Origin: Sipunculus nudus
Lineage: Eukaryota; Annelida; Sipuncula; Golfingiida; Sipunculidae
Direction: 5' to 3'
DNA length: 64,000 nucleotides
Assembly: GCA_026874595.1 (NCBI GenBank)
Contig: CM049313.1
Coordinates: 27,030,008-27,094,007, forward strand
Shown: piece after piece, positions 20,634 to 58,938 of the stretch
How the letters are laid out: every line of letters starts with the position of its first letter
Position numbering within the stretch: position 1 is the stretch's first letter
The notes under the pieces: model-generated
The model's database searches: none
The model's input: the letters and a program-made list of their open reading frames with translations, nothing else
Told to the model about the DNA's origin: nothing
Made by a program: the position numbers and the translations under genes

Positions 20634-20849
20634 TTGGCTCAGCTGACTGTAAGTCATCTGAGCTATAGTCGTGGTCAATTGTCCTTCGTCCGTCTGTCCG
20701 TCCATAGATGTGGCACATTTTGAAATTGTAAGACCTAGGAATCCAAAATTTGGCATAATGTTAGATGTCCCCAAGATCTCCTACCAAGCTGAAAACTGGG
20801 TCTTTGTGACTTCGTTCCTTTGAGAAATTAAGGAAAAACCTCAATTTTT
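20634..20849 (+). mobile_element. Family A, 5' fragment
   Basis: Begins at the degraded TTTTGGCTCAGCTGACTGTA, the 5' terminus shared with copies at 35388, 46946 and 55276, and runs through the GTCYGTC-rich tract. A family B 5' end (AGCAAACCTGTGAGC) takes over at 20850. No family A 3' end follows within the next 14 kb. Confidence 0.8.
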
Positions 20850-21586
20850 AGCAAACCTGTGAGCTATTTGCGATGGTGTGGCTTTGTCTGGCGTCCATCG
20901 TTCGTCATCTGTACGTTAACCCATACTATCTTGAAAACGGCAAGAGTTAGCATCACAAAATTTTATGCAAAAAATTAGTCATCTAAAAAACTATCAGATT
21001 TTGCTAATTTTTTGGCTAACTGCATTTTCTTAGATTTTATAGGTAAAAAGCTAAAAAAGCTTTAAAAGTCTTCTCTGAAACTTTTCAGCCAAATTGTTCA
21101 ATATTTCACAGATATGATTCCTGGAACAATCTCTCACAAGTTTGTTCGATTGGTTTAAGTTCAGTGATTTTAGCCGAGTTACAGGAAGTTGAACTTAGTC
21201 ATCTGTCAAAAAAAGCAAACTAAAATTACAATCTCAGAAACGGCTGGAGCTACCATCACCAAATTTTATGCCAATGTTGGTCACATGAGTCTTATCTGAA
21301 ATTGGGATATTGGAGGCTCCACCTGCATCAGCCTTTTTTGTATGGGAGTCATCAGTGCCCGTATCATACTGACGGCTACAAAAAACATCTTCTCTGAAAC
21401 CATATGGCCAAATTTTTTAATATCGCACATTAATTATCCTCAGATGTTGATAATTCAAGTTTGTTCAAATGGTTTTGGTTCAGTGATTTTTGGCTGAGTT
21501 ATGGGAAGCCATTTTGCAGTATTTTCCCATATTAGTTATAAACCTGCAAAATGTTTTTTGACTTACGCCACTGATTCCAATTTGTT
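20850..21586 (+). mobile_element. Family B, 5' fragment (copy 1)
   Basis: Starts with TTTTT then AGCAAACCTGTGAGC, a variant of the family 5' terminus AGCGAACCTGTGAGC, followed by the shared GTACGTTAACCCATACTATC segment. At 21587 a second family B 5' end interrupts it; the equivalent uninterrupted sequence in copy 2 is near 22505. Confidence 0.82.
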
Positions 21587-23159
21587 AGTGAACCTGTGAG
21601 CTTATGCGATGGTGTGGCATCATCCGGCATCTGTTGGCCATCGTCCGTCGTCTGTATGTTAACCCATACTATCTTGAAAATGGCAAGAGTTAGCATCATG
21701 AAATTTTATGCAAAAAATTAGTCATCTAAAAAACTATCAGATTTTACTTATTTTTTGGCTAACTGCATTTTCTTAGATTTTTTAGGGAAAAAGCTGAAAA
21801 AGCTTTAAAAATCTTCTTCTCTGAAACTGTTCAGCCAAATTGTCCAATATTTCACATAAATGATTCCTGGAACAATCTCTCTCAATTTGTTTAAATGGTT
21901 TAAGTTCGGTGATTTTTGGCCGAGTTACATAAAGTTGAACTTAGTCATCTGTCCAAAAAAGCATACTAAAATTACAATCTCAGAAACAGCTGGAGCTATC
22001 ATCACCAAATTTTATGCCAATGTTTGATCATATGAGTCATATATTGGTGGCCCAACCTGCATCGGCCTTTTTTGTACAGGGTCATCAGTGCCTGTATCAT
22101 ACTGACAGCTACAAAAAACTTCATCTCTGAAACCATATGGCCAAATTGTTTAATATCGCACAGAAATGATCCTAGGGTAGTGCTTTCTGAAGTTTGTTCA
22201 AATGGTCTCTTTTCAGTGAATTTTGGCTGAGTTATGGGAAGCTGAATTTAGTCATATGCCATAACAGCCCATTTTAGCTCAGTGGCTACAAAGATCTTCT
22301 TCTCAAAAACCACTGGGCCAAATTCTTAAATCTCACACATTAATTATCCTCAGATGTTGATAATTCAAGTTTGTTCAAATGGTTTTGGTTCAGTGCTTTT
22401 TTGCTGAGTTACGGGAAGCTGAACTTAGCCAGTTTGCTGTATCTTCCTATACGAGTTATAAACCTGCGAAACGTTTTTCGACTGATGCCTCTGAAGCCAG
22501 TTTGTTAAATATTTTACAGAATAATCCCTACAATAACACTTATAATAATTGTCATTAATGGTTCCACTTGAATGATTTTTGGTTGAATTATGGAGATAGA
22601 ATTGAGTCATTTTACCATATATATTAGCTGTGTGATGCTGTTACATCTGGCATGGCACCAGTTTATCAGCATCTATTACATCATGCCACTAGACATTTAG
22701 ATTTCAGGTTATATTTGGTTAATATTGACAAGAAAGTTTTTTTAAAAGCTTTTAAAAAATTTAGATTTATGATTTAAGTTATACATCATACCAGGCAATG
22801 TTACAATCATGGACGATTAGCTCTCTGTAGCTATATAAAGACAACTGTACGTGGATTGTAAATTATTGGTATCCCTACTCAACTTAATTAAATAATTTGC
22901 CATCAATGATATATATCTGTATTTTAATTTTGCATTCAGTATGCATCTGTAATAATTTTACATATATTCCTGATTTCTTTTATTTTTAATAAAAGTCAGC
23001 TGAAAAGTATTTTGTATTGGGAAAATAAATTTCAAAGTTATTTCAAGTAGGGACCACTTTTGTGTACAGATGGCAGCACTAGGTTTACCATTGGCAGATT
23101 GCCAGTGCTTCGAAGTTGGCCATTAGCCAAGATAATGTCAGCTCTATAAATAGTTTTGG

Positions 23160-23480
23160 CACAGTGCCAGGATTGGAAGAAGTGGAGCCAGGTATAGATC
23201 AAGAGTTCACTCAGTGCAGTAGCTGCATTCTATTTATAGCTTTGGCGGACTGCTCATTGCATCATATTTGGCACCAAAGTTCAGCCTGAATCTATTTATA
23301 GCTTTGGCAGACTGCCAACTGTGTCAGATTATGCAACAGGTCAAGAGTTCACTCAGTGCAGCCAGGTACAGGTCAAAAGCTCACTCAGTCTAACCAGGTG
23401 CAGGTCAAGAGTTCACTCAGTGCAGTAGCTTGAGGTAGCAATTTGTCACTCAGTGCAGTAGCATGAGGCAGAATTTTGTC
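23160..23480. repeat. Short tandem motif GGTCAAGAGTTCACTCAGTG inside family B
   Basis: About five degenerate copies of CAGGTnnAGGTCAAGAG and TCACTCAGTGCAG with intervening TCTATTTATAGCTTTGGC segments. The same block recurs at 30070-30440, about 33900-34130 and, shortened, near 36500, always in the 3' half of family B. It marks the family's internal organisation. Confidence 0.75.
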
Positions 23481-23879
23481 ACAGGTCACTAGGGGGCAAC
23501 TGCCTTACTCATCTAAGCCTTGTCAGCCCAGTGCATCAAAATCTGGGGAAGTTTGATGTATTGGACTGATACCTGTCTATGCGTCTTTGATGGTATTCTC
23601 ATTTACAAGACAGGTGGTGCCACCTACATTGACTTTTGCAGTGTATGCGCCTGCTTATTTCTGCAGAGGAATTTGATACATCAGCCTAAAATTGGGTATG
23701 TTTATACATATTGGGTAGCTTTACAGTGTACAAGACTGGTGGCGCCACCTACAATAATTTTTGCCCGGTGTATGTCCCTGCTTATTTCACAGGAGGGGTT
23801 TGACATATCAGTCTGACATTGGGCATATGTATATATCTCTTCATTGTATATAAGACTGGTGGTGCCAGCTACAATCATT

Positions 23880-25221
23880 GTATCTGCCAAAACAGAGTTT
23901 TGCGGATACTATGTTTTCAGTCGGACGCCGACGCTGCCGCCATCGCCGCATAGGTTTCCGAGGAACTCCTCCATAACCACTGGGCAGAATTTTTTCAAAT
24001 TTGGAATTATGATCAGTCAAATGTGAACTGCTGTGCCCTCATTTTTGGTTGACCTCTGACCTTTCCTCTCTGCCCAGCATCCATTTGTGCGTCTGATTCC
24101 ACACATAAACCCACATATCTCGGGAACCGTTTGACCGATAAGGCTGAAGATTTCGCACAAATGTAGCCCTTGGAAAGCTTTATAACATACACTTAAAATG
24201 GTGGCGCCACCTGCTACCATTTTTGCGCAGTGTCCATCTGTTCATCTGCCTTGGGATGAAAACACTCAAATCTCTGCATTTGTTGGACTTATCCACCTGA
24301 AATTTTACATGTGTATAGATGTCCCATAGCTCTTTATCGTACGCAAAACTGGTGGCGCCACCTGCAACCATTTTTGCACAGCGTCCATCTGTTCATCAGC
24401 ATTGGGAAAAAATCACTTGTATCTCGGCAGTGGTTTGACTTATCCACCTAATATTTTGCAGGTTTATACATCATGGACAGCTTTCTTGATTTTATGACAG
24501 GTGGCGCCACCTACATTCAGATTTACGCTGCAGACATCCAAGCTCATATTTCAGGAACCATTTTACCGATTGGGCAAAAATTTTGCATGTTCATAGATCT
24601 CACATATAGCTCTTTATCATACACAAAACTGGTGGTGCCACCCGCAACCATTTTTGCACAGTGTCTGTCTGTTTGTTTGCCATGGGATAAAATCACTCAT
24701 ATCTTGGCAGTGGTTTGACATATCTGCCTAACATTTTGCAGGTATATACATCTTGGATAGCTTTCTTGATTTTGTGGCAATTGGCGCCACCTTCATTTAT
24801 GTATACGCTGCAGACATTCAGGCTGATATCTCATGACTGGTTTGACATATCCCTCTAAAAACTTTGCATGTGTATAATTTTCACATAGCTCTTAATCATA
24901 CACAAAATTGGTGGCACCACCTGCCACCATTTTTGCACAGCGGTCTTTCTGTTTGTCTGCTGTGGGATAAAATCACTCATATACAAGTAGTGGTTTGACT
25001 TATCTGCCTAAAATTTTGCATATGTATACAACTTGGACAGCTTTCTGGATTTTATGGTAGGTGGCGCAACCTACATACACATTTCGGCTGCAGACATCCA
25101 GAGTATTGTGCAACACACCTCACTCTATTTCCCCTTGCCACTCAATCCATGCCTCACTTCACCCGTCCTACTCTGATTTTGGCGGATACACGTAGTCGCT
25201 TATTCACTACCCATATTCTAG
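23880..25221 (+). mobile_element. Family C element inserted in family B copy 2
   Basis: 5' end GTATCTGCCAAAA; 3' end TTTTGGCGGATACACGTAGTC, a CTTATTCACTAC loop/stem, CCATATTCTAG, then T's. TGTATCTGCCAAAA and TTTTGGCGGATACA are near-perfect 14-bp inverted repeats. Family B at 30732 (CAATCATTTTTGTGTTGTGT) gives the empty site: here it reads CAATCATT, element, TTTTGTCATGTGT. Insertion was therefore between T's. The interior is made of ~278-bp units carrying GGTGGCGCCACC palindromes. Confidence 0.88.
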
Positions 25222-25408
25222 TTTTTGTCATGTGTGCACCCATGCCAGAATTTCAGCAGTGATGTTTGTTAAATTGTTTCTTGTTCTTAGTGTTTAGTAC
25301 TTGCATTGTTCATACATATGTCACACAAAAGTAATGGTCCAGCATTGAAGCATTATACCTAGTGTGACCTCATTGCACAGGTTCGCATTAGGCCTGTAGG
25401 CCTTGTTT

Positions 25409-26380
25409 AAAATTCGATATTATGATCGGTCGCGTGTGAACTGCTGCGCCCTCATTTTCGGTTGACCTCTGACCTTTCCTCTCTGCCCAGCATCCATTTG
25501 TGCGTCTGTCACTACACATAAACCCACATATCAAGGGAACCGTTTGACCGATAAGGCTAAAGTTTTTGCACAAATGTAGCCCTTGGAAAGCTTTATAACA
25601 TACACTAAAAATGGTGGCGCCACCTGCTACCATTTTTGCACAGCGTCCATCTGTTCATCCGCCTTGGAATAAAAACACTCATATCTCTGCATTGGTTTGA
25701 CTTATCCATCTGAAATTTTGCATGTGTATACATCCTGGATAGCTTTCTTGATTTTATAACAGGTGGTGCCACCTACATTCATTTTTAAGCTGCAGACATC
25801 CAAGCTCATATCTCAGGAACCATTTGACAGATTGGGCAAACATTTTGCATGTGTTTAGATCTCCCATAGCTCTTTATCATACGCAAATGCGGTGTCGCCA
25901 CCTGCAGTCATTTTTGCACAGCGTATGTCTGATTGTTTGCCGTGGGATAAAATCACTCATATCTCAGCAGCGGTTTGACATATCTGCCTAAAATTTTGCA
26001 GGTTTATACATCTTGGATAGCTTTCTGGATTTTGTGGCAGGTGGCGCCACCTACATTTATGTATACACTGCAAACATTCAGGCTTATATCTCAGGACTTG
26101 CTTGACATATCCCCAAGTAATTTTGCATGTGTATAGATCTCACATAGCTCCTAATCATACACAAAATTGGTAGTGCCACCTGCCACCATTTTTGCACATT
26201 GTCTGTCTGTCTGTCTGCAGTGGGCTTAAATCACTCCTATCTCAGTAGTGGTTTGACTTATATGCCTAAAATTTTGCATGTTTATACATCTTGGATAGCT
26301 TTCTGGATTTTTTGGCAGGTGGCGCCACCTACATTTATGTATATGCTGCAGACATTCAGGCTTATATCTCAGGACTGGTT
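25409..26380 (+). mobile_element. Family C, 5'-truncated copy
   Basis: Directly follows the family B 3' end. It begins inside family C at the point equivalent to 24000 in the first copy (ATTATGATCGGTC...GTGTGAACTGC) and has neither the family 5' nor 3' terminus. It stops at 26380, where a family B 5' end is inserted after GGACTGGTT. Confidence 0.82.
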
Positions 26381-27595
26381 AGCGAACCTGTGAGCTTATG
26401 CGATGGTGTGGCGGCGTCCGTCATCCGTCCGTCTGTCGTCCGTCGTCTGTACGTTAACCCATACTATCTTGAAAACGGCAAGAGTTAGCATCACCAAATT
26501 TGATGCAAAAAATTAGTTATCTAAAAAACTCTATCGGATTTTGCTTATTTTTTGGCTAACTGCATTTTCTTAGATTTTATGGGGAAAAAGCTAAAAAAGC
26601 TTTAAAAATCCTCTTCTCTAAAACTGTTCAGCCAAATTGTCCAATATTTCACAGAAATGATCCCCAGAACAACCTTTCTCAAATTTGTTCGAATGGTTTA
26701 AGTTCGGTGATTTTTGGCCGAGTTACAGGAAGTTGAACTTAGTCATCTGTCCAAAAAAGCATACTAAAATTACAATCTCAGAAACGGCTGAAGCTGTCAT
26801 CACCAAATTTTATGCCAATGTTGGTCACATGAGTCATATCTGAAATTGAGGTATTGGTGGCGCCACCTATATCGGCCTTTTTTGTACAGGGGTCATCAGT
26901 GCCCGTATCATACTGACGTCCACAAAAAACTTCTTCTCTGAAACCATATGGCCAAATTGTTTAATGTCGTACAGAAATGATCCAAGGGTAGTGCTTTCTG
27001 AAGTTTGTTCAAATGGTTTTGATTCAGTGATTTTTGGCTGAGTAATGGGAAGCTGAACTTAGCCATTTTTCTGTATTTTCCCATATGAGTTATAAACCTG
27101 TAAAACGTTTTTTGACTGACTCCACTGAGGCCAGTTTGTTTAATATTTTACAAGAATAATCTCCTGAATAATTCTTATATTAATTGTCTTTTATATGGTT
27201 CCAAAGAATGAATTTTGGCTGAATTATAAAGATTGAATTGAGTCATTTTACCATATATGTAAACTGTGTGAAGCAGATACATCTAGCCTGGCACCTGTTT
27301 ATCAGCATCAATCACATTGTGCCTCTAGACATATAGATTTCAGGTTATCTATGGTTAATATTGACAAGAATGTTTTTTAAAACTTTTTAAAAAATGTAGA
27401 TTTATGATTTTAGATATTCCTCATGCCAAGCAATGTTTCAGACACAGGTATACAGCTCTCTGTGGGTATATAAAGATGGCTGTACATGGATTATAAATAA
27501 TAGGTATCCATACTCAACTTAATTCAAGATTTTGCCTTCAGTGAGATGTATCTGTATTATAATTTTGCATTCAGTATGCATCTGTTGTAATTTTT
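26381..27595 (+). mobile_element. Family B, 5' part (copy 3)
   Basis: Starts AGCGAACCTGTGAGCTTATG after GGACTGGTT in family C; carries the GTCCGTC tract, GTACGTTAACCC, and a GGTGGCGCCACC palindrome at 26856-26867. At 27596 another family B 5' end begins. The 3' terminus of this copy is not found. Confidence 0.83.
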
Positions 27596-29017
27596 AGCGA
27601 ACCTGTGAGCTAATGCAATGGTGTGACGGCGTCCGCCATCTGTACGTTAACCCATACTATTTCAAAAACGACTGGAGCTAGCATCATGAAATTAAATGCA
27701 AAAAATTAGCCATCTGAAAAACTGCATTTTCTTAGATTTTATAGAGAAAAAGGTAAAAAATCTTTAAAAATCTTCTCCTCTGAAACGGTAAAGGCAAATT
27801 GTTCAATATTTTACACAAATAATCTTTTATACCATCTCTCTCAAGTTTGTTTGAATGGTTTCAGTTCGGTGAATTTTGGCCGAGTTACAGGAAGTTGAAC
27901 TTAGACATTTGTCAAAAAAGCATACTAAAATGACAGTCTCAGAAACGGCCAAATCACCAAATTTTATGCCAGTGTTGGTCACATGAGTCATATATGAAAT
28001 TCAGGTATTGGTGGCGCCACCTGCATTGACCTTTTTCTGTACGGAGCTCATTGGTCATCTCTACATTGACCCATAATTTCTCAGGAATGGCAGGAGCTAC
28101 CATCCCAAGATTTTATGCAATAATCTGTCATATATCAAATGTTGTGGGATTCAGCTTAATTTTTTGCTATCTGCGTTTACTTAGATTTTATAGGGGAAAA
28201 ACTGAAAAACCTTTAAAAGTCTTCTTCTTGTTAACAGTCCAGCCAAATTGTTCCATATTTTGCAGAATTGATCCCAGAGGCAAGCCCTCTCAAGTTTGTT
28301 CAAATGGTTTGCATTTGATGAATTTTAGTGGAGTTACATGAATTTGAACAGTCATTTGGCCAAGTAAGCATACTGACATATTCATTTCAGAAATGACAGA
28401 AGCTAGCATTTCCAAGTATTGTGCAAATGTTGGTCACATGACTCATATTTGAAGTTGCAGATTTTATGGTGCCACCTACATTGACCGGTTTTTTATTGGC
28501 ATAAACCTCATAATTTTAGCCTCTTTCAGCTTAAAATGTTTATGATGAAACTGTCAAGTTGAATCGTTCAATTTTTCAAAAGAATTATTGTAGGACATGG
28601 TTCTTTCAATCATATCAGAAAAGCTTTTGTTGGTCTTATGGCCATTATTATGTCTGTTTCAAACTGAGGACTGCAAAACTGTTCTTCTACAAAATTATTG
28701 TTTCAATTATAACTTCTGTAACATTTCACAAAAATTATTCTTAGGTGGACTTTGTTCAAGTTTTCTTGAATGATTTTTGGCAGAATTATTGGACCTGTAA
28801 CAATGAAAGAACTGCATCTTTTATTATTCTAGATATTTTGATAAAAAGTTTATGAATATGTCAGCTTGAAAAAAAAGCATTATAGTCTTTCAGTATGTGT
28901 AAACAGATTCACCAACACTCCAAGATCAGTGGTTACCGTTACTATTTTCCCTCCACCGAGGTTGGCAGGTCTGTGATACTATGGCACCTGCAGTGCCAAG
29001 AAATATCTAGTTATATA
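27596..29017 (+). mobile_element. Family B, 5' part (copy 4)
   Basis: Starts TTTTT then AGCGAACCTGTGAGC at 27596. Palindrome GGTGGCGCCACC at 28010-28021. From about 29018 the sequence switches to family A-like DNA rather than the family B 3' half. Confidence 0.8.
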
Positions 29018-29254: not shown

Positions 29255-30929
29255 AGGGAACCTTTGAGCTTATGCGATTATGTGGCATTGTCCGTCATGC
29301 GTCAGTGTGTCGTGCATCGTCTGTACCTTAAACATAGCTATCTGAAAAATGGCAGGAGGTAGCATCACCAGATTTGTTGCAAATAATCAGTCATCTGAAA
29401 AACTCTTTTTTTTTACTAACTGCATTTTCTTAGATCTTATAAGAAAAAGTTAAAAACCCTTTAAAATATTCTTCTCCGAAACTGTTGGTCTGAAAGTGTT
29501 GGTCATGTGACTCATATTTGAAATTGCACTTTTTGTGGCGCCACTTACATCGACCTGTGTTTTTTTTACAGTCAGAAACCTTGTAATTTTAGCCACTTAC
29601 AGCTTAAAAATGTTTTATAATAATGAAACTGTCAAGCTGAATGGTTTAATTTTTCACAAGAATTTTAGGATAGGGTTTTTTTTAATTGTATAAGCATAGG
29701 TTGGGTTCATTGATTTTTGGTAGAGTCATAGAAAGCTTAAGTTGGTCTTGAGGTCATTAGTAAGCCTATTTCAAATTGAGGGCTGCAGTAGTCTCCTTCT
29801 GCAAAACTGTTGTTTCAATTTATGTAACGTTACTTAAAAATTATTCTTAGGTGGGCTTCGTTCAAGTTTACTTAATTGATTTTTGGCACAATTATTAGAC
29901 CTTTAAAAATGAAAGGACTGCATCTTTTATAATTCTAAACATTTTTTATAAAAAATCTTATGAATGCATTGGCTTAAAAGAATCATTTTAGCCAAAGGAT
30001 TTCAGTATGTGTAAATAGATTTACTTTTACCAACAGGCTAAGATTGTGTATGTAATTATAAATAGCCTGGCAGACTGCTAACTATTTCATATTTGGCAAC
30101 AGGCCAAAGGTCAGTCTTGGTCTATTTATAACTTTGGCAGACTGCCAACTGTAGCAGATTAGGCAACAGGTCAAGAGTTCACTCAGTGCAGCCAGGTATA
30201 GGTCAAGAGTTCACTCAGTGCAGTAGCTGCATTCTATTTATAGCTTTGGCAGACTGCCCACTGCATCAGATTTCGCACCAAAGTTCAGCCTAGATCTATT
30301 TATAGCTTTGGCAGACTGCCAACTGTGTCAGGTTATGCTACAGGTCAAGAGTTTACTCAGTGCAGCCTGGTGCAGGTCAAACGTTAACTCAGTCTAGCCA
30401 GGTGCAGGTCAAGCGTTTACTCAGTGCAGTAGCTTGAGCCAGCAATTTGTCACAGTTCACTTGGGGCAACTGCCTTTCTCACCCAAGCCTGGTCAGCTCA
30501 GTGGCATCAAGCTCAAGGGAAGTTTGATGTATTGGCCTGATATTTTGACCTGTCTATGCCTCATTGATGGCTTTCTTGTTTGCAAGACAGGTGTCGCAAC
30601 CTACAATATTTTTTTCACAGTGTATGTCCCTGCTTATTTCTCAGGAGGGGTTTCACATATCAGTCTGAAATTTGGCATATGTATATATCTCTGATAGCTT
30701 CGTTGTATAAAAGACTGGTGGTGCCAGCTGCAATCATTTTTGTGTTGTGTGCACCCATGCCCGAAATTCAGCAGTGATGATTGTGTAATTGTTTCTTGTT
30801 TTAAATGTTTAGTACTTGCATTGATAATATACATGTTACACATGTACTTGAAAAGTGCCCAGCATTGAAGCATTATACTTGGTGTATATCCAGTTGCACA
30901 GGTTCGCATTAGGCCTGTAGGCCTTGTTT
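29255..30929 (+). mobile_element. Family B, complete copy 5
   Basis: 5' end AGGGAACCTTTGAGC at 29255; 3' end CACAGGTTCGCATTAGGCC, then TGTAGGCCTTG, ending at 30926 before TTT. The 3' hairpin AGGCC-TGTA-GGCCT is at 30911-30924. Contains the GGTCAAGAGTTCACTCAGTG block (30070-30440) and the uninterrupted site corresponding to the family C insertion at 23880. Its 3' end lies about 75 bp upstream of an MSH3 exon. Confidence 0.86.
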
Positions 30930-33062: not shown

Positions 33063-33071
33063 TCACTTTTT

Positions 33072-36569: not shown

Positions 36570-36655
36570 CTTACCTGGCTCTGGGGGGGTGTCTAGACAA
36601 TGTGTCTAGACGTCTAGACACAGCGTCGAGACGTCTAGACACAATGTTTAGATGC
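36570..36655. repeat. Palindrome cluster of GTCTAGAC and GACGTCTAGA motifs
   Basis: A perfect 22-bp palindrome spans 36601-36622, with half-site TGTGTCTAGAC and centre AGACGTCT. It is flanked by GTGTCTAGACAAT on the left and GTCGAGACGTCTAGACACA on the right, so GTCTAGAC recurs at least four times in 70 bp. Not seen in other family B copies. Confidence 0.85.
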
Positions 36656-46945: not shown

Positions 46946-47774
46946 AGCTCAGCTGACTATAAGTCATCTTGAGCTAGTGCTATAATTGTGGTCCATTGTC
47001 CGTCGTCCCTCCGTCCATCCGTTAGACTGGCAAGTTTTAAAACCGTTGGACCTACCAATCCAAAATTCCGCATGCTGTTAGATGTCCCCAATATCTCCTA
47101 CCAAACTGAAAACTGGGTCACTGCGACTTTGTTCCTTCAAGAAATTAAAGAAAAACCTATTATTACACTTCAGGACTGCCTTATATCAAAACCACTTATC
47201 TGCTTTTTTCTTCATATTAACCAGAAGTATTGTCTTATTTAGTTCCTATGTACATGCCAGATTTTAAGTCCGTTAAGTATAATCTCTTAAAGTTATGGGC
47301 CCGAACATAATGGACTTTGTAAAAAACAGGAAAAATATTTACTCACTTAACATGAAAAGCTAGAGATTTTTTGTCCAAGTATATAACTTTGTTTAATTAA
47401 GTTTTAATTGTATACCCAAAATTAGATCTGAATTTTGTAAATTTTTTAAGTTATAAGCATAAACATAAAATCATTTCCTTAAACTTTGCCCAAGTTTGAC
47501 CATGGCAGGTTTTTTTCCTGTGAGAAGAGTTGATTTAATTTTCACAGCATGTAAACATAAGTATTTTATATGTTTAAATCTGAAATTTGAAAATAAAAGC
47601 TTGAAAATTAGGCTAGTTATTGAATTTCTTCTTAAGGCTCTATTTAGTCACTTGCATTGTCCAGATGCAGGCAGCCCCCTCCTGGTCACTGGAAGTCAGC
47701 TATGCCAGGGTTCCTGATTAGTTACAGTCATTAAGTTTCCCTTCTGTGACAGGTGTACTATAATTCTCATATCA

Positions 47775-48899
47775 CCCCCCCCCCCCCAACCCACACACCC
47801 TGGCAACCCTACCCAACAAGTGTTATGCAGTAATTGATATTGTTTGCACTGTATTTCCTTAATTGTAATGCTGTTTCCAATATACAAAACTTTCCTTGAA
47901 AAAGTAATTCAAGGAGTAATCCAGAAGATGCCATGTTGAGTTAATGAAGCCTTTTTAAAGAAATCAAATGTTCTTTTAAATGATTTTTACAAATTAAAAT
48001 ATAATTAAATCCATCAGTATACATAAATTTATTAAATATGAAGCAAATTATGGATAAATAAAGGCAGAAGTTAAAATTGTGAAATCTGAATCAAGTATTA
48101 TTTCTTTTATATTTATTGTTTGCAAATTTGGTAAAAAAAATATACTTGTGTATGCATGTTGTGGTGTTATTGAGGTTTATGATGGTGCAATTTAGAATTA
48201 TGAATCTAATTAAAAAATTTGATTGATAAAAAATGAGGATCTAATACAAAAATTATTAATTATTTTCCTGTCTCAGCAGAATTGGAAATCAGGCTTTGTT
48301 TGCTCTGTATGTATATGCAGAAGTGTTGTAATCCCACCATGCCCCCCCCCCCCCCCCCCCCATCCTCTGCTACCATTGATTTATTTGCACCTCTGCACTG
48401 GGACATTGGTTTTTATTGCAAATGTGTAAAATTTATTTGATTTACAAAATAATTGGATTAGAAAAAAATTAAGTTCTAATTGAAACACATTCTTGCCTCA
48501 GGAGAATAGAACATAAAGTGATCATCTCTGTCTGTCCATCATCTCTTCATTATCATTAAATACATATTAATTATAAATTTTTCCTAAAGCACTGTTAAAA
48601 TAACTTTCATATGTTGTATGTGTATGGATTTAAGCTATTAAAGTCTGAAATATGAAAGCAGCTTATCTATTCAGTTGTGTAATATTGCAGATGTTAAACT
48701 TTAAAACAATTTGATATAATAAAAATAAGAAATAATTGAAACTTTATATATTATCAGCTTTGTTTGTCTACCAGTCTGTGAGTCTTTTTTGAATAATAAT
48801 TTTTTAAATATTTAAGAATTAAATGAAAATCCTATATATATACACTATAATAATACAGAGATGTTGTAACTCCCATCATTCCACACCCCCCCCCCCCCC
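47775..48899. repeat. Three poly(C) tracts inside family A
   Basis: Runs of 13 C at 47775-47787, 20 C at 48342-48361 and 14 C at 48886-48899. The last two sit in a recurring context (GTTGTAACTCCCATCATTCC, then C's). Equivalent tracts occur in other family A copies at 40226-40245 (20), 56047-56060 (14), and 57989-58000 (12). Confidence 0.9.
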
Positions 48900-48978
48900 A
48901 ATCACCACCACCACAAAGTCCTTGCATCTGTGGACTGAGGGCATTAGTTACATTTCAACTGTACATGTTTTATAAAAT

Positions 48979-48980
<2 letters not shown>

Positions 48981-49037
<57 letters not shown>
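48981..49037. repeat. (AT)n microsatellite
   Basis: About 28 AT dinucleotides in an unbroken run, followed by ATTTATTAATATATATTAT. It lies within the family A copy. Confidence 0.97.
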
Positions 49038-49041
<4 letters not shown>

Positions 49042-49356
49042 TAATATATATTATAAAAAAATAGATCCAATTAAACTACTGAACTGTCAACAATTTATCA
49101 AAAAGCCAACCAATGATCATGGTAATAATATACATCTTGTGTTCAAATTGCTTCAATTTTAACATTATGAAATGCATGGTTTGGTCACAAAATAACATTT
49201 GCAACAATTTCTTACTCATCAATACAAACCAATCATGTCAACCAGCCATGGCCTATATTACCTTTTCCTCTTAGACTTTATCTCCATTTGATATTATTTT
49301 AGATTTTTACCTTCAAGATCAACTTCAGCTGAGCACAGTGACCCATGAGTCCCTTG

Positions 49357-51054
49357 TTTTTCTTTTAACTGACCAGTCAATAAAGTGTTCATTATCCCCT
49401 TGTTGACTGACATGTTTCAGTAATACCATGCATGTGCCACCCCTTGATGGTCAGTTGTAACAATTAATTTAAGGGTTACTTAATTCACTTTTCAAGTGCA
49501 TTTCAATATTTTATGAGAGAAATTAGGTAAATACATTCAAACTAAATTATTCTTTCTATCCTTGTTGGTCTTTAATCAGTTCAAAATATGCCCAATGTGG
49601 CGGATTGAGACTCGTCACACTTGCACAAACTAATGAATCAAATCTACTTTTGACAATCTTCAAGCATTTAAGCAGTTGGTCGAGTATGATATTATTTTGC
49701 TTCAGACTGTTTTTTATATTCATACAGTCATTTAACTTGATATAAGTATTTCTAATGTTACTTTACCTAGTAAGAAACATCAATAATGACATTGTTTCAC
49801 AGCACAAAATGTAATCTGATGTAGCTGACCCTGGGACTCCAACACACTATACAAATAATATCTGACAATTGAACCCTGACTTTATATGTAATGATACTGT
49901 TGTTATTCCTTATTTGTAAGCATTGTTTTTAAAATGTATGATTTATCTTTATGTGTAAATGGTTGATCTAGTTTAAAAACCACCTTAGTACTACAGAGAC
50001 CTTGGTTGTAGTCTTTTACTGAAGGGAGACAGGATACTTAAATTCAATAGGTACCAGGTGATTGGGACGCCTCTAAACTCTGGGTGTGACTCAATTATGG
50101 ACATTTCCAAAAACAAAACTTTAATGGCTATTCCCCATGGGGATCCTAAATTCAAGGTGCGACTTGTAATAAGGATGTGATTTCTGCAAGGAATTTTATG
50201 GTAGTGTTACACAAAGTGTACCATCATATAAATACAAAAATAAATACAAATTCTACCTTACACATGTTTTTGGCTGTTACAGTAGTTACATTAGTAAAAA
50301 TAAAAAATTTATAGAACACCAAGGTCTACTGAATTTGGCACTTTTTAAAGCCCTGTTATTTATTCATTAATACACTGTAAAGTGTTGATATGTTAGTTGT
50401 TGGTTAGCTGAGCATAATGACCCATATGGCTTTCCATTATCCTCCAATTAGATGGTACCAGGACATATAAGTTTCAGAAACTTGATGATTTAATCTACAA
50501 TCTAAAGCTGGATGAATTATGAAGAAAAAATCTAAAAAAAAAGCCTTATATATCCAACTATTGGGATTAACAATTTAGATATACAGATTAAAGGGGTGTT
50601 TCCATGTCACGTATATGCATATATATGCATGAAAAATCTCTCATATGATTTTCTTACTGGTGTGTTTCCCTGTGTCTGTCAGTGTTTATGCATATATGCA
50701 TGAAAATCAACACAGGAGCAATCAGATACGCCTATACGTGCACATGGAAACACTTTCAAGCATATATACCCACATACGCTTATGCGTGCACATGAAAACA
50801 CACCTTTTTCACGCATATACCCATTTGGCATTCAGATGATAAAATTCCTTTTGTAATTGTCTTCCTACTCAGCTGAGCGTCATGACCCCTTGTTCACTTG
50901 TTAATAACAACTTTAAGAAAAACTAATAGAAAAAGGAATTTGATAGTTGATGAGTAACAAGGAATTACCTTGCAATTACTGATGTTGTAAGGATCTTGTA
51001 TGGATGGATGAAAATGTTTTCCAAATAACACCATGCAGTCACCTATGGTATTTT
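49357..51054. other. AT-rich spacer with family A 3'-end scraps and an inverted repeat
   Basis: Mostly plain AT-rich DNA. Family A 3'-terminal scraps appear near 50405 (TTAGCTGAGCATAATGACCC) and 50870 (CAGCTGAGCGTCATGACCCC). Between them, GTGTTTCCATGTCACGTAT (50596-50614) is nearly the inverse of ATACGTGCACATGGAAACAC (50734-50753), with TATGCATATATGCATGAAAA repeated in between. This could be the stem of a small palindromic element. Confidence 0.5.
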
Positions 51055-52900
51055 CAGCTCAATGACTATATCTGAGCTATAGTCATGGTCTGTTGTCCAA
51101 CCTGCTGGCCAGCCGTCTGTGCTTAAACAAGGCACGTTTTAAAACCATTGGACATACAAATAAAAAATTTTGCATACAGTTTAGATTTCCCCAAAATCTC
51201 CTACCATATCGAAAATTGGGTCACTAAGACTTTGTTCCTTTGAGATATTAAGGAAAAACCTTCATTTTCCATTAAAAACCCATTGTTACACTTCAAAACT
51301 GCCTAATATCAAAACCACTGATCTGTTTTTGATCATATTTAGTAGGCATATTCTTCCATACATTTCCTATGTACGTACCAAAATTAAGGTCAGTATTTTG
51401 TAATTGTATCTGCCAAAATGAAGTTTTGCGGATACTATGTTTTTGACCGGGTTCCGCCGCCGCGTTCGTTTCCTTGGAACTCCTCTGAGACTACTAGCCA
51501 GATTTTTCCGAAACTTACACCAATTATCGGGTCACATGTGAACTGGTGCCTAACCAATTGGCCTTGACCTCTGAACTTTCCTCTCTGCCCAGCGTCCATT
51601 TGTGCGTCTGTTTCCACACATAAACCCAAATGACTCGGGAACCGTTTGACCGATCAGGAAAGATTTTTTACACAAATGTAGTCCTTGGATAGCTTTATAA
51701 CATACACAAAAAAAGGGTGGCGGCACCTGCAACCATTTTTGCACAGTGTCCATCTGTTCATCTGCCTTGGGTTAAAATCACTCATATCTCTGCAGTGGTT
51801 TGACTAATCCACCTGAAATTCTGCATGCAAATACATCGTAGATAGCTTTCTTGATTTTCTGACAGGTGGCGCCACCTACATTCAGGTTCAAGCTGCAGAC
51901 ATCCAAGCTCATATCTCCAGAACCTTTCGACCAAGCAGGAAAAAAATTTTACACAAATGTAGCCCTTGGATAGCTTTATAACATACACAAAAATAATGGC
52001 GCCACCTGCAGCCATTTTTGCACAGCGTCCATCTGTTTGTTTGCCTTGGGTTAAAATCACTCATATCTCTGCAGTGGTTTGACCAAATTACCTGTAATTC
52101 GGCATGCGTATACATCCTGGATAGCATTCTTGATTTTATGACAGGTGGGACCAGCTTCATTCACATTCACGCTGCAGACATTAATGCTTATATCTCCAGA
52201 CTCGTTTGGCCAATCAGGAAAAAAAAATTACACAAATGTAGCCCTTGGATAGCTTTATAACATACACAAGAATGGTGGCTCCACCTGCAGCCATTTTTGC
52301 AGAGCGTCCATCTGTTTGTCTGCTGTGGGATAAAATCACTCATATCTTTGCAGTGGTTTGACGTTTCAACCTGAATTTTTTCATGTGTATACATCTTGGA
52401 TAGTTGCTCGTTCAAATAAAAGGTGGCGCCACCTACAATCATGTTTACATGGCAGACATCCATTCTTATATTTAACACATGTAACTCTATTTCCCCTTGC
52501 CTATCAATCCATGCCTCACTTAACCCCTCCTACTCTAATTTTGGCAGATACACATAGTTGCTTGTCAACTACCCGTATTCTAGTTTGTTGAAGTAATGGG
52601 CCAGAACATAATGCACCTTGTAAAAAATTAGGAAATATATTTACTCACTTAACATAAGAATTGCTGAAGCTAGAGACTTTTTTTCAGGGACATAACTTCA
52701 TTTAATCAAGATTTAGTTGTATACCAAAAATTAGATCTGAATATTACAAATTTTATATGTAATTAGCATAAATATAAAATTAGTACCTTAAATTTTGCCA
52801 AGCTTTGCCAGCTTCCTTTATTTCAGTTAATAAAATTAAACATGCCCAACTCCAGTTTGCTCCTTGTATATCATATTGGGTGTTTTGATCCTTGGGTTAT
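51055..52900 (+). mobile_element. Family A, 5' part hosting family C
   Basis: Starts TTTTCAGCTCAATGACTATA near 51055 and follows the family through GGTCAGTATTTTGTAA. Family C interrupts at 51406-52584, after which family A resumes (TTGAAGTAATGGGCCAGAAC) until family D begins at 52905. The copy at 55276 shows the same place uninterrupted (CATTGTTTTGAAGTTGAGGGCC, 22 nt). No 3' end found. Confidence 0.8.
51406..52584 (+). mobile_element. Family C element inserted in family A
   Basis: 5' end GTATCTGCCAAAATGAAG at 51406 after GTAATT; 3' end TTTTGGCAGATACACATAGT, TGCTTGTCAACTACCCGTAT, TCTAG at 52583. The 3' stem is TAGTTG/CAACTA here but TAGTC/GACTA in the copy near 38040: a paired C-to-T and G-to-A change that preserves pairing. 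GGTGGCGCCACC sites at 51866 and 52422. Confidence 0.88.
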
Positions 52901-52904
52901 TTTT

Positions 52905-55066
52905 ATGCCCCCGCCACAAAGTGGCCGGGGCATATAGTTTTACCCATGTCCGTCATTCCGTCCTTCCATCATTCCGAAATCAAACAGCTGTACAGACTTT
53001 TTTTCAAAATGCCTGCTGATACAGGCTCATTTTTGGTGTGTGGGCAGATAATGACAAGTTACAGATTGAGTTCATGTTTTGTCCCAGTTGACCTACTTTT
53101 GACAGTTTGACTGCTCCTAAACTAAGAAAATTTCATGAAAAATAGAAATTTTCATGACAAATACACATGTACGGACTTTTTTTTCACAATACCTGCAATT
53201 ATTGGCCTGATTTTTGGTGTGTTGGCAGATTATGACCAGTTACAGATTGAGTTCGTGTTTTGTCCCAGTTGACCTAATTTTGACCGTTTGACGGTGCCTT
53301 AACATAGAAAATTTCATGAAAAATATAAATTTTCATGACAAGTGCACATGTACGGACTTTTTTCGCAGTGCCTGCAGATACGGGCCTGATTTTTGGTGTG
53401 TGGGCAGATAATGACCAGTTACAGATCAAGTTCATTTTTGTCCCAGTTGACCTACTTTTGACCGTTTGACTGCCCCTGAACATAGAAAGTTTCATGAAAA
53501 TAGAAATTTCATAACAAATGCATATGTATGGACTTTTTTTCAGCAATGCCTGCAGATACCGCCCTGATTTTTTATGTGTGGGCAGATAATGACCAGTTAC
53601 AGATCGAGTTTGCGATTCGTCCCAGTTGATCTACTTTTGATTGTTTTACGGCTCCTAAACATAGAAAATTTCATGAAAAATAGAAATTTTCATGACAAAT
53701 GTACATGACAGCCTTTTTTAGCCCTCAGCTCATAGGCTGATGGGCTATTGTTGTCACCCAAGCTGTCCATCTGTCCGTCTGTCTGTCCGGCGTCCGTCCG
53801 TCCCGTGTCCGTTTACTTTTACCTTGTGAGCGGGCTACCTCTAAAAAGATTCACTGTTTTGAATTTTTTATTTCATCAGTGAAGATGTATATTGATAAAA
53901 TTTCGGTCAAGTTCGAAGATGGGTGACCTTGACCCATTTTTCTACATTTTAGAGCTGATTATAGAAAAACACTCAGAAGATTATATCTCAGGAACCATTG
54001 TGTGGATTTTCACAAAACTTACTATGATCATTGGGACTGATGGTCTGTACATGTTGCACAATTTTGGTGGCGCCACCTGCAATTTCCGAATTTTTTATCA
54101 ATTTTTATCGGATTTTCCAATTTTGGCCTTGTGAGCGGGATATCTCTAAAAGGATTCACCGTTGGAACTTTATTTCATCAGTGAAGATGTGTATCAACAA
54201 AATCTTTGTCAAGTGCAAAAATGGGTTACCTTGACGTATTTTTCTTTGTTTAAGAGCTGATTATACAAAAACACTCAGAAGCTTATATATCAGGAACCAT
54301 TGTGTGGATTTTCACAAAACTTACTATGATCATTTGGAATGATGGTGTGTACGTGCTGCACAATTTTGGTGGCACCACCAACAATTTCTGATTTTTTTAA
54401 TGAATTTTTATATGATTTTTCAATTTTGGCCTTTTGTTCAGGATATCTCCAAAGGTGTTCAACACAGGAACTTCATTTCTTCAGTGCTACTGCATGATAT
54501 TTACAAAATCTTGGTCAAATTCAAAGAAGGGTGATCTTGACCTACTTTTCAAGGTCACAGACCTTAGTATAGAAAAAAACTTAGGAGCTTAATTCTCAGG
54601 AAGCATTTGGTGGATTGTTATGAAACATGGTACATACCTCTCCAATTTAAATTTATAACTGATTATCAGCTTTTGCTAATATTGTAGTTTCGCAATGCAA
54701 TGCTTACAGATACTGGCCTATTGTTTGGTCTGTGGGCGCATAATGACCAGTTACAGATCAAGTTCATGTTTCATCCCAGTTGACCTATTTTTGACCATAT
54801 GACAGATCCTGAACATTGAAAATTTCATGAAAGACAAATTTTTATGAAAAATGCACTATATGGACTTTTTTTCACAGTGCCTACAGATACTGGCCTGATT
54901 TTAGGTGTGTTGCTTGATAATGGCCCGTTACAGATTGAGTTTGCATTTTGCCCTTGTTGACCTACTTTTGACCATACGACACCTCCTGAACTTAAAAAAT
55001 TTTACAAAATTTAACAAAAATTTGCTCCAGGCGGGGGCATTTGTGTCGTTCTGACACATCTGGTTT
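52905..55066 (+). mobile_element. Family D element, complete, hosting family E
   Basis: 5' end TTTTT then ATGCCCCCGCCACAAAGTGG at 52905; 3' end GGCGGGGGCAT (55030-55040), hairpin TGTGTC-GTTCT-GACACA (55042-55058), TCTGG, then TTT. ATGCCCCCGCC and GGCGGGGGCAT are perfect 11-bp inverted repeats. After a GTCCGTC tract the body is ~180-bp units with ATGACCAGTTACAGATTGAG near 53050, 53234, 53413, 53591, 54742 and 54923. Family E lies inside between the fourth and fifth units. Confidence 0.88.
53720..54680 (+). mobile_element. Family E element, 3' end unclear, nested in family D
   Basis: 5' end TTTTTT then AGCCCTCAGCTCATAGGCTG at 53720, followed by a strong GTCCGTC tract and about three units of 250-310 bp opening GTGAGCGGGATATCTCTAAA (near 53826, 54132 and, eroded, 54430). 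GGTGGCGCCACC at 54066-54077. The expected inverted 3' end (GAGCTGAGGGCT) is not seen, so the right border is approximate. Confidence 0.72.
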
Positions 55067-55275: not shown

Positions 55276-57077
55276 AGCTCAGCTGACTGTAAGTCATCTG
55301 AGCTATAGTCGTGGTCCATTGTCCATTGTCCGGCTGTCCATCCAGCCGTCCGGCTGTTAACAGGGCACGTTTTGAAACTGTTGGTCCTATGAATCCAAAA
55401 TTTTGCATACAGTTAGATGTACCCAAAATCTCCTACCGTACTGAAAATTGGGTCACTAGGGCTTCTTTCCTTCAAAATATTAAGGAAAAACCTTACTTGA
55501 AAAACCATACATTTTCCTTGAACATACCAAAAATTAGGTCAGTATTGCTCATTGTTTTGAAGTTGAGGGCCAAAATATAATGCAATTTTTTTAAAGATTC
55601 AGTAAATATATGTACTCACGTAACATGAGAATTTCTGAAGCTGGAGACTTTTTTTCAGGGATATAACTTTATTTAATCAAGATTCAATTGTTTACCAAAA
55701 ATTAGATCTGAATTTTGCAATTTTTTTCAGTTATTAGCATAAATAAAAAATTAATACCTTAAATTTTGTCCATCTTTATCTACGGCACGTTTTTTCCCTG
55801 TAAGCACTGTTGATTCAATTTACACAGCATATATACATAAGGAATTTATCTTTTAAAATCTGAAATTTCATAGGATTTGATTGAAAAGAGTATCTTTTAT
55901 TCAAGTTTTCATACACCTTTTCAAGTGCTGTTTACATCTAGCCCACCTAGTAGTACAGCCGTCACTTGTGTTATGTAACCCACCCCAGGCAGGTTGCCCT
56001 GGCTCAACTTGGCCACTCCTAGCAGGCTTCTCCTCTGCCCTGCACTCCCCCCCCCCCCCCAGATGGTGCATTAACTAGATGAATGTTATAATTTTCTGTA
56101 TTTGATTCATTCTTATTCTAGGCTATGCTACATTTTAGATTTTGTATTGTACCACCATGGTTACAATGATTAAAGTGCCCATTTAATTGTGTCCACAAAG
56201 TGGTGTATTGCTATGAAAGTGTGGATGTTCATCAGATAAGTAATTCCTTACTTCAGAAGAGTTAAAACTTCACCAGGTGTGAAATTGACTATTAATTCCA
56301 GTAATAAATTATAGCTGAAATTGTAATTAGCACAATTATTGTTCGCCCTCATTCAACCAACAGTGTTTATACGTTATTTGAAAAGATATCTTATTTTATC
56401 AGATTACTGAATATTTTATTTTTTGTGAATAAATTTAAGCATGTAATAAAAACTCCTATGTAGAAAACTTTTTAATAGTGATTCAAGAAATAATCTTGAA
56501 GATGCCATGTTATGGCATTATTTTCTTTTAAATTCAGCTTAAACATTTGTGATTTAAAAATAATAAAATATATGTGTATGCCTAATATGACCCAATAGCA
56601 GATACACTCTGGATAAATAATGATTGCAACTTAGAATTCTGATATTTTAACTTATATTTTCAGATTTTTTTATTATAAATTTATATAAAAAAAAATGAAT
56701 ATGATAAAAACTTTGAATGGAAAAAGTGGATATGTTAAAAAAAATAGGCTTTACTATAAACTTAAATGCATTATTCCCTTAAAAGTAAAATAAAGGTATT
56801 AGTCCATTCTGTCCACTTGTCTGTCCATCTTTAAATTCATTATATGCATCATAGTATTTCAAAACTTTTACTCTTTTTCTTCATGACAGTCTTGTCAGAG
56901 TATTAGTTTAGAAATCATATATTTAGAACTATACTATAACCAAGTAGGAGGGCCCCTTTCCTCTTAGCTTCTCATATGCTTATATATATAAAAAAACATT
57001 ACAATAGAATATTTTGCATATTTTGCATTTGCAAATATTTCAAACTTCAGCTGAGCGCTGTGACCCATGGGACCCTT
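55276..57077 (+). mobile_element. Family A, complete copy of 1.8 kb
   Basis: 5' end TTTTTT then AGCTCAGCTGACTGTAAGTC at 55276; 3' end TCAGCTGAGC (57047-57056), GCTGTGACCCATGGGACCCT, TG at 57077, then TTTT. Inverted ends are perfect over 10 bp. GTCCATTGTCCGGCTGTCC tract after the 5' end, 14-C tract at 56047. It supplies the uninterrupted version of the family C insertion site at 51406. Confidence 0.88.
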
Positions 57078-57608
57078 GTTTTATCAATTAAAGCCATAAA
57101 ACCAGGTACTAATGATCATTATTTAAATTTGCTAAATTTGTATATCCTGGATTCTCAACAGTTTTGTTTGACTGAAACTGAATAAATATGAGACACTTAA
57201 TGAACATTATAATTGTATTTGAATATGAATACAAAAATTCAATAGTTTGATCAAGAAAATTAATACAAATAGTAATACAGGTAAAAAGAAAGTAGCTGAA
57301 TGCCAGTGCAAATACTTTCAAAATGTATTCATGAATGCATACATTTTATAATATTATTTTAATGATCTTTTATTTCAATTATATTATTTAAAAAATCTTT
57401 TTTGGACGACACAGTATGTATTTTTTAATTAAAATTATATTTTGCCCAATAATTGCAATTAATTTTTAATAATAAATAGTTAAACTCTCAACTATCATTT
57501 GTGCTAGTGATACTCCTGGCTATAGGTAACCTGTAATTGTTGAATAACAGATAACTCCTTTGTAAAAAGCATGCATAATAATTGACATGACTTACAGTTG
57601 ACATTTTT
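57078..57608. other. AT-rich spacer without recognised features
   Basis: Strongly AT-rich; no gene, RNA or repeat terminus recognised between two family A copies. Confidence 0.5.
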
Positions 57609-57628
57609 ATGCCCCCGCCACAAAGTGG
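57609..57628 (+). repeat. Orphan 5' terminus of family D
   Basis: TTTTT then ATGCCCCCGCCACAAAGTGG, the exact first 20 bases of family D, followed at once by unrelated AAAAAAATTGATG. Only the terminus is present, so it is either a severely truncated insertion or the breakpoint of a deletion. Confidence 0.8.
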
Positions 57629-57639
57629 AAAAAAATTGA

Positions 57640-58938
57640 TGTAATGAAAATAAAAGGAATTAATGCAAATATTGTTATTTTTTACCTGTCTCAGCAGAAT
57701 GGGAATTAAAATGATTTGCTTTATTTCTCCAACTTTCTGCCTGTTTTAAATATTTAATAATTATGAATAATTTTTTTTTTCCTGTAAGAACTGTTGAATT
57801 AAATTTCATATCCTGTATGTATATGCAAGGGTGTTGAAACTCCCACCATCCCCTTCCCCCACCCCACTGTGTCCTTTCTCCATGGCACTGTGAACAATAG
57901 TTCTATGGCTATAGCATAATTTAATAATTAATGAAAATATATACAGAGAGATAGAGGCATTGAAACTCCCATCATAACCCTCCTTTCTCCCCCCCCCCCC
58001 AACAAGAAGTCCTTTCACCTGAGGAGTGGGGATGTTATGGCAACTATATACATATCATAAAATAGAAAAAAAAGTTTATTAAAAATTTGGATCTCATTAG
58101 ACAAATGTGTTAACTGTTGAACTGTCAACAGCTTATCAAAAAGGTAACCAATGGAAACGCATCATCAGATCTCAAAATATTATCTACAGTTTCTTCAGTC
58201 ATATCAACCATCCATGGCCTAGGTTACCCCTTGCTCCCATGCAGACATCCGCATTTCATAATATTTAGATTTTAACCTTCAAAGTGTTTAAGTACTGTTG
58301 AATGGTCAGTTCCCCTCTCCTTTTCTCTCCTTTTCTCTCTACATCCACCCCTCCGTGCGTCCCTCACTGTTTTCTTCTCCAAACCCAATCCCAGTGTCAG
58401 CCTCAGTAAACAAGAATAAGATGAATCAGATGTATTCATATTTTTATATTTTGTACAAGTATTTGTCCATGGTACCTATGTACATGCCAGAAATTATGTC
58501 AGTATTGTGTAATATGTAGACGTGGTGGGAATCAAAATAATGTACCTTGTCAAGACTGAAGTGATATCATGTCACACAGTCACAAATTCATAAATCCCCT
58601 CTTCAGTATAGTTTATCATAACATTATATCTGTCAAATTGAAATCTTATCATCATTCTACCACTGCTGAGTATACTGTCATTGTTTTCATATTTGCTCAA
58701 ATACATCGCCATTTTCAACCCCTCCCAAATAAATAAAAAATAAGCCACTATATTTTACTCCATATTTATCCATCAGTCAGGTTATTTCATATATCATTTA
58801 CTCACATATTACATTATATTCCTTTATAATAGCCCAACATGTCCATAAAATTCATAACCTTTATATAGTATCAAAATATAGATACATTTTTAGTCCATTC
58901 ACAATCAGCTGAGCCCTAAGTGAGCCATGGGTCCCTTG
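57640..58938 (+). mobile_element. Family A, 5'-truncated copy
   Basis: Shares interior landmarks with the 46946 copy (ACCTGTCTCAGCAGAATGG near 57690; ACTCCCACCATCCCC) and has the 3' end TCAGCTGAGC (58905-58914), CCTAAGTGAGCCATGGGTCC, CTTG at 58938. No 5' end. Contains the source of the 422-bp duplication. Confidence 0.8.
57841..58262 (+). repeat. 422-bp direct duplication, copy 1
   Basis: Runs from TCCCACCATCCCCTTCCCCC to CATCCGCATTTCATAAT and recurs at 61082-61505. Reading both side by side, the only difference I find is the C tract: 12 C's here (57989-58000), 14 in the second copy. Part of family A. Confidence 0.93.

Follow-up and report, generated by a model that had tools for sequence, protein, structure and literature searches.

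RESULTS

Four families of non-coding elements in one orientation

We analyzed a 64,000-nucleotide stretch of the Sipunculus nudus genome (GenBank assembly GCA_026874595.1, contig CM049313.1; C8:27030008-27094007 in our numbering of contigs), referred to here as the window; the assembly comprises 1.43 Gb in 153 contigs, 17 of them chromosome-sized. The window carries copies of four families of non-coding elements, A to D, which a first-pass annotation of the sequence had compared with the rolling-circle transposons Helentron and Helitron2. The motif sets described for the four families were all found where the annotation had placed them, with 11 matches for A, 9 for B, 8 for C, and 5 for D, versus means of 0.12, 0.50, 1.51, and 0.18, respectively, in dinucleotide shuffles, and no shuffle reached the observed count of any family. 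Extended 5′ termini of all four families were present as well. The most unusual feature of these elements is their shared orientation, which is absent from that annotation: of the 14 directional 3′ ends that the window contains (6 A, 4 B, 3 C, and 1 D), every one lies on the plus strand.

As had been described, the families share one plan, in which an inverted repeat lies at the 5′ end and its partner lies inside the 3′ hairpin; read directly, the 3′ repeat is the reverse complement of the 5′ repeat in each family. This placement, near the 5′ end but internal, before the hairpin, at the 3′ end, is that of Helentrons and of their non-autonomous derivatives (HINEs). Judged from their termini and flanks, none of the families has the 5′ TC and the insertion between A and T that define canonical Helitrons (PMC4067079; here and below, statements from cited papers refer to the available excerpts of each). 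Genome-wide, the 3′ ends of all four families recur, with 41,974 matches for A (34-mer, up to 3 mismatches), 4,597 for B (exact 22-mer), 9,074 for C (32-mer, up to 2 mismatches), and 2,275 for D (36-mer, up to 3 mismatches), and with 0 matches for each of the reversed-pattern controls. The lists of genomic places used below hold the first 100 matches per pattern, which over-represents C1; their entries for A, B, and C are confined to exact copies.

Two details of the termini were corrected by these copies. The D end, given as TCTGG, is a variant of the window; among the matches listed, TCTAG is found in 18 of the 19 copies with at most 1 mismatch. All families had also been said to start after T's. 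This is true of D, in which T's directly adjoin the repeat (5/5 copies); in A and B a conserved base intervenes, an A at −1 that 11 of 12 A 5′ ends and 7 of 7 B 5′ ends carry just before the inverted repeat, and C reads T-N-A-T (11/11). The element may include a few bases beyond the inverted repeat, such that the repeat would lie a base or so inside A and B elements; the HINE inverted repeat sits slightly inside the element (PMC4067079). After the 5′ repeat, A and B copies carry a GTCC-type microsatellite, and tandem cores have a period of 276 to 280 bp in C copies and 181 bp in D copies.

Conservation of the hairpins across copies differed among families and among pairs. One pair of the A hairpin covaries (GACCCATGGGTC versus GGCCCATGGGCC), with standard pairing in 20 of 23 distinct copies versus 17.0 under independence, and one of eight distinct C copies has a compensatory change from C-G to T-A. 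The remaining A pairs showed no excess over independence, and at five of the six C pairs, one to three copies fail to pair. The B hairpin, which is invariant, and the D hairpin, represented by two copies, are uninformative on compensatory change.

Insertion into T-rich sequence without target duplication

We compared the joined flanks of 21 candidate elements with the window and with retrieved loci (numbered L001 onward). One C insertion has the filled site CAT|TTTTTGTC and an uninterrupted relative, CATTTTTGTG. Uninterrupted relatives were also present for a second C insertion (in L020), for a B insertion into a T-run of an A element, and for an A insertion (in L054, the join having an 8-base gap). 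None was found for the D insertion or for several other elements, the remaining matches being repeats, gapped, or weak. The lack of target duplications proposed earlier was thus confirmed at three to four sites, none of which has a duplication beyond the T's, one or two extra T's being possible; one B, two C, and one gapped A site show insertion in T-rich sequence.

Rep-coding elements share the termini of families A and D

A search with the Helitron_like_N profile (PF14214) gave 143 matches among the best 150 of 195 candidates, several of them in frames longer than 2,000 amino acids. None of the listed matches lies in the window, in agreement with the earlier statement that no Rep/helicase gene is present there; a search for autonomous elements with the same ends had been proposed as a check. 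We examined the DNA around 5 Rep loci and then 4.5 kb downstream of 16 more, and found such elements in the same genome for A (Rep/helicase coding) and D (Rep coding).

Four A-type Rep copies, at C17:35.63M, C5:42.91M, C10:71.60M, and C9:52.35M (C17a, L049, L050, and L053), are 98.2 to 98.7% identical downstream of the Rep region, and the match breaks off no farther than 4 bases from the A 3′ terminus, where the T's lie. On the 5′ side, the homology of the two copies compared (C17 and C10) opens at a T-run, 7 bases ahead of the A 5′ repeat, and their flanks beyond it differ; the A 5′ terminus is duplicated in both. The autonomous A element of C17 is 14,882 bp long and has an uninterrupted open reading frame (ORF) of 2,342 amino acids. 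A Pfam scan of 2,332 amino acids of this ORF matched Helitron_like_N (5.1e-27), PIF1 (6.4e-23), and, weakly, Exo_endo_phos (4.4e-4), as well as DUF6570 and a herpes-tegument-N-like region, and the ORF contains PHIHM and YIVSYVSK, which we take to be the HUH and two-tyrosine motifs of the A Rep. A C element is embedded in the C17, C5, and C10 copies; in the C9 copy only its 3′ end was recognized. A sister Rep lineage (L042, L043, L044, and L063) ends in GGCCCATGGGCC...CACTAG, which is the A hairpin with the compensated pair.

The D-type Rep copies at C3:41.77M and C5:20.31M have a common D 3′ end with 99% identity, 4.0 kb downstream of the Rep match; the second was found by a genome search with the 470 bp that end at the D 3′ end of the first. 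Both have D-type tandem repeats upstream, and their homology starts at the T-run of the D 5′ terminus, where the flanks differ. Coordinate subtraction gives lengths of 12.0 and 12.4 kb. The Rep domain is present in both copies, with one stop inside the C5 match and none inside the C3 match.

Because their termini are common to Rep-coding elements, we regard it as practically certain that A and D are non-autonomous Helentron derivatives, that is, HINEs. B and C very probably belong to the same Helentron/HINE group, an assignment made by analogy from their shared architecture. The Helentron/Helitron2 interpretation of the first-pass annotation is thus backed by Rep elements with the same termini for A and D and by architecture for B and C. 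The endonuclease-like region may point to Helentrons over Helitron2: an ORF 93% identical to the A ORF scored 32.7 bits (cutoff, 27.4), and the ORF of a second set of Reps, group 1, scored 50.3 bits, above the cutoff.

Four observations count against this assignment. In the A ORF itself, the endonuclease profile matches weakly, at 20.5 bits against a cutoff of 24.5. No autonomous partner for B or C was found among the Rep loci examined. A candidate for B, the Rep at C17:31.32M with a B 3′ end 6.4 kb downstream, was rejected, as the Rep element ends at an A-variant terminus and the B end is a separate copy. Finally, at 6 of the 16 additional Rep loci, the 4.5 kb examined contained no A-D end.

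For several Rep groups, among them group 1 (C11:50.38M and relatives), the 3′ end was not reached within 4.5 kb. Protease-like regions occur in the Rep ORFs of L001, L003, and L005, an OTU region in the group 1 ORF and herpes-tegument-N-like regions in the other two.

Neighboring elements of different families form strand domains

Neighboring elements also share an orientation on C1. On this chromosome up to 16.3 Mb, 196 A, B, and D ends fall into 40 strand runs versus 98.2 expected (z = −8.4). Among all pairs on C1, the two ends agreed in strand in 24/24 pairs at less than 6 kb, 24/26 at 6 to 12 kb, 54/61 at 12 to 25 kb, 67/80 at 25 to 50 kb, 120/152 at 50 to 100 kb, 179/264 at 100 to 200 kb, and 620/1,386 at 0.8 to 1.6 Mb. 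Pairs drawn from different families gave 10/10, 11/13, 24/31, 39/46, 45/67, 86/137, and 345/758 over the same intervals. Concordance on C1 therefore decays over ~50 to 100 kb; once the minus domain in the first 1.1 Mb is left out, agreement at 100 to 200 kb is 98/179. Exact C places and the nearest place of another family lay on the same strand in 6 of 6 cases within 60 kb and, on C1, in 3 of 4 beyond 60 kb. Duplicated segments were retained in the strand-run and concordance counts.

Neighboring elements thus form strand domains across families, a pattern about whose reality we have next to no doubt. A strand bias of T-runs was unsupported as the cause of co-orientation, the T5:A5 counts in the window being 218:187 inside elements and 86:100 outside them.

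Element orientation and the strand of host genes

We compared 479 typed element places with exons of the ion-channel, kinase, and PDZ families on C1 to C17 (301 exons in 214 same-strand clusters). The best 130 to 150 candidates were scored per family in the host-family and Rep profile searches. One second piece was dropped from the 41 rows of the D search, and one C row less than 400 bases from a B row was merged out. Hits on small contigs above C60 (41/108 PDZ, 7/138 kinase, and 2/150 RRM) were excluded; the 41 PDZ matches, on C61 to C119, lie mostly in open frames of ~465 to 550 amino acids and probably reflect bacterial contamination or a symbiont.

At up to 60 kb, all 11 of 11 genes (14/14 pairs) had the same strand as the nearest listed element, compared with 4 of 7 at 60 to 120 kb and 5 of 10 at 120 to 200 kb. 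Placebo comparisons with the elements shifted by 1 to 3 Mb gave 4/7, 4/7, 7/13, 5/8, and 4/15. The 60-kb limit was picked from this first result and was then fixed before the search for RRM genes, whose inclusion under the same rule brought the pooled count to 12 of 14 genes (one-sided binomial P = 0.0065). For RRM, 73 of 148 hits had been set apart as retrotransposon-like by a filter made after the list was viewed, with two exempted by hand; with the set-apart hits restored, the count is 12 of 15 (P = 0.018). These 73 chromosomal RRM_1 matches recur with the same profile ranges and resemble retrotransposon ORF1.

Introns offered a second view of the same relation. The ion-channel introns examined, 94 kb drawn from nine genes, contain four sense elements in two of the genes: L013 has a C and an A copy, L014 a D piece, and L020 an A copy. 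On the sense strand, 10 of the 11 intron pieces are T-rich, one of them by a mere 0.001; sense-strand T-richness has likewise been reported for human genes (PMC10030826).

Other results pull the opposite way. Only one of three RRM genes within 60 kb had its nearest element on the same strand, and the set-apart RRM hits gave 0/1. One of the two RRM misses is an intronless 763-amino-acid ORF on the minus strand within a run of 16 plus-strand elements; in the other, the element is closer to a PDZ cluster on its own strand. Rep copies, of which 79 of 143 were typed, agreed with the gene's strand in 1 of 2 cases within 60 kb. In the introns, one A end with 6 mismatches is antisense in a third gene (L012), and 7 of the 11 pieces contained no A-D element by either of two methods. 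The gene test is small, and its outcome is suggestive, not proven. On this evidence, we think it probable that element orientation is linked to the strand of host genes.

Arrangement of the elements in the window

The individual copies are listed in Table 1. Immediately after the A 3′ terminus at 58905-58938, a tandem array of 157-bp units begins (58939-61061), and a C-like 278-bp tandem core without assigned C ends lies at 25599-26376, just before a B 5′ end. A satellite array with an 83-bp unit (~193 copies, 91% matches) occupies 1045-17025. A Pfam scan of 10 of the 72 listed ORFs of the window recognized no host gene, only an RVT fragment and a weak fn2 match; the former, an RVT_1 fragment at 18990-19382 (+), scored 29.3 bits, just below the 29.6-bit cutoff.

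TABLE 1 Copies and isolated termini of families A to D, in window positions
Feature	Position	Strand	3′ terminus	Remarks
A 5′ terminus	20637-20665	+		Subterminal repeat and internal palindrome; no paired 3′ end
B element	21588-25405	+	25376-25405	5′ end at 21588 (1 mismatch); holds nested C element
C element	23879-25221	+	From 25177	Inside a B element; window 30661-30800 is an uninterrupted relative; core period 280
B 5′ terminus	26382-26406	+
B 5′ terminus	27597-27621	+
B element	29256-30926	+	30897-30926 (exact)	5′ end with 4 mismatches
B element	33073-35371	+	From 35342	Variant 3′ end
A element	35389-39289	+	From 39258	Broken by B element
B element	35770-38236	+	From 38207	Nested in A; uninterrupted relatives in autonomous A copy; contains 278-bp tandem core and C 3′ end at 38020-38064
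A element	39507-42689	+	42658-42689	Weak near-palindromic 5′ end (6 mismatches on +, 7 on −)
C element	40290-41440	+		5′ end at 40290; 40390-41440 aligns with C element of locus L013; core period 276
A element	46947-49356	+	From 49325
A 3′ terminus	50869-50900	+	From 50869	Diverged
C element	51405-52583	+	From 52539	Uninterrupted relative in L020; surrounding sequence related to an A copy of L020; tandem core, period 279
D element	52905-55063	+	From 55030	Both ends; tandem core common to autonomous D elements
A element	55277-57078	+	From 57047	Uninterrupted relative in L054 (8-base gap at join)
D 5′ terminus	57609-57628	+
A 3′ terminus	58905-58938	+	From 58905	One extra base before hairpin; abuts 157-bp tandem array

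DISCUSSION

Our results are best explained jointly if A to D are HINEs of Helentrons and their orientation stems from insertion into the coding strand of transcribed DNA, an account that we consider rather likely as a whole. The transposase of the Helraiser Helitron cleaves single-stranded DNA; circles are formed, and a 3′ hairpin serves as the terminator (PMC4778049). By extension from Helitron biology, the 5′ end of an element would be nicked, one strand would be peeled off, and the 3′ hairpin would end the copy, after which Rep would join the single strand into a single-stranded T-run. With Helraiser as the guide, the hairpins of A to D would end the copy and the T-run would be the joining site. 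Where host DNA is transcribed, the target strand exposed in this way might for the most part be the non-template (coding) one, in which case most copies would be sense to the transcription unit and neighbors would agree. We favor the non-template strand because the strand domains are of gene-sized scale and because element strand matches gene strand.

The case for sense-strand insertion or retention in transcribed DNA is suggestive, not proven. That insertion bias, and not selection, lies behind the orientation is a fair way short of an even chance in our estimation. We put forward with slightly more reserve the specific proposal that Rep integrates into T-runs of the non-template strand where RNA polymerase has opened it (R-loops), such that HINEs would record the direction of germline transcription. 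One domain fits poorly with insertion or retention on a gene-by-gene scale: all 35 listed A, B, and D ends in C1:64036-1057048 lie on the minus strand, and this run of ~1 Mb is longer than expected of a gene. A further difficulty is that selection after insertion would produce the same orientation pattern.

Selection is the main rival. Elements would insert either way, but the minus strand of antisense copies would interfere with splicing or terminate transcription, and for this reason those copies would be eliminated. In mammals, an orientation bias of intronic elements is well established and has been ascribed to selection (PMC3517506, PMC1794541, and PMC3088655); there, however, it is antisense and not sense as here. 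Donor-like GTRAGT motifs are indeed commoner on the minus strand, with 11 versus 4 in nine window elements and 12 versus 6 in the autonomous A element, but poly(A) signals show no clear strand bias (AATAAA, 19 versus 24; ATTAAA, 18 versus 20). The short-range concordance is, moreover, complete among well-conserved copies (24/24 pairs closer than 6 kb), and selection is usually reported to give weaker concordance than this. We therefore hold selection to be unlikely, if still a serious contender.

A second rival invokes replication. Rep would join DNA into the lagging-strand template, as in IS200/IS605, and orientation would reflect fork direction. The IS200/IS605 enzyme is itself an HUH enzyme. 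These bacterial elements share with ours a single-stranded target and a genome-wide orientation bias, and theirs follows replication (PMC5371812), whereas our data point to gene strand, in an animal. The ~1-Mb domain at the start of C1 would suit replication. Without that domain, however, agreement at 100 to 200 kb is down to 98/179, and strand flips occur within 25 kb (13.04-13.07 Mb), which is finer than typical animal replicons. Nor is there a common chromosome-end rule at 0.6 to 1.0 Mb from the chromosome start, the four listed B copies at this distance on C5, C6 (two), and C16 being +, +, +, and −. Telomere repeats were not seen in the first 90 bases of the 17 chromosomes, two of which are N. 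Since gene strand, in addition, predicts element strand within 60 kb, we judge fork direction an improbable cause.

Equally improbable, in our view, is that local duplication or side-by-side insertion, through tandem rolling-circle products or segmental duplications, made neighbors co-oriented. Maize and bats have Helitrons that lie head to tail next to each other (PMC2267711), and C3:39137235-39193317, with five exact C ends on one strand, mostly in ~11-kb steps, is probably a tandem duplication; yet concordance spans unrelated families, reaches at least 50 kb, and extends to the host-gene strand. Lastly, a reading of the families as cut-and-paste DNA transposons with subterminal inverted repeats, of the kind of miniature inverted-repeat transposable elements, could draw on the inverted repeats near both ends and the high copy number, but the compared sites have no target duplication beyond T's and the ends of A and D are shared by Rep elements, which makes it extremely improbable.

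Insertion into the coding strand of transcribed DNA, by elements of the Helentron group, accordingly remains our preferred account. HINEs are already known from bivalves and flies, and A to D extend this known kind. They share with HINEs and Helentrons, including DINE-1, subterminal inverted repeats, a 3′ palindrome, an unmodified T-rich target, a tandem or microsatellite core in some copies, and, in the A lineage, a Rep/helicase partner with an endonuclease-like region (PMC4067079); they differ in family sequence, and strand domains and gene co-orientation go unmentioned in the available part of that paper. Cg_HINE of Crassostrea gigas and the bivalve Pearl elements have a 5′ subterminal inverted repeat with its complementary repeat, a GTCY microsatellite, central satellite-like repeats, a 3′ subterminal repeat with a palindrome, and T-rich insertion in common with our families (PMC7492417). 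They differ in that we show autonomous partners with matching ends for two families, and orientation in the excerpt of PMC7492417 refers to repeats compared with the ends of the same element. Helitron2 shares the asymmetric inverted repeats and palindromes but is described in PMC4067079 as having no endonuclease, whereas the A lineage possesses an endonuclease-like region, if a weak one in the A ORF itself. We found no report of strand domains of Helitrons or Helentrons in the openly licensed literature, as judged from titles and abstract openings with partial coverage.

Matched autonomous partners are now in hand for two families with ~42,000 (A) and ~2,300 (D) marked 3′ ends. The orientation domains weigh more than the elements themselves. 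By what route eukaryotic rolling-circle transposons gain access to single-stranded target DNA is, to our knowledge, an open question; if transcription sets the strand record, this question of target access becomes testable with annotation and with maps of nascent RNA or R-loops. If true, the orientation of these elements would provide an annotation-free marker of transcription direction in HINE-rich genomes.

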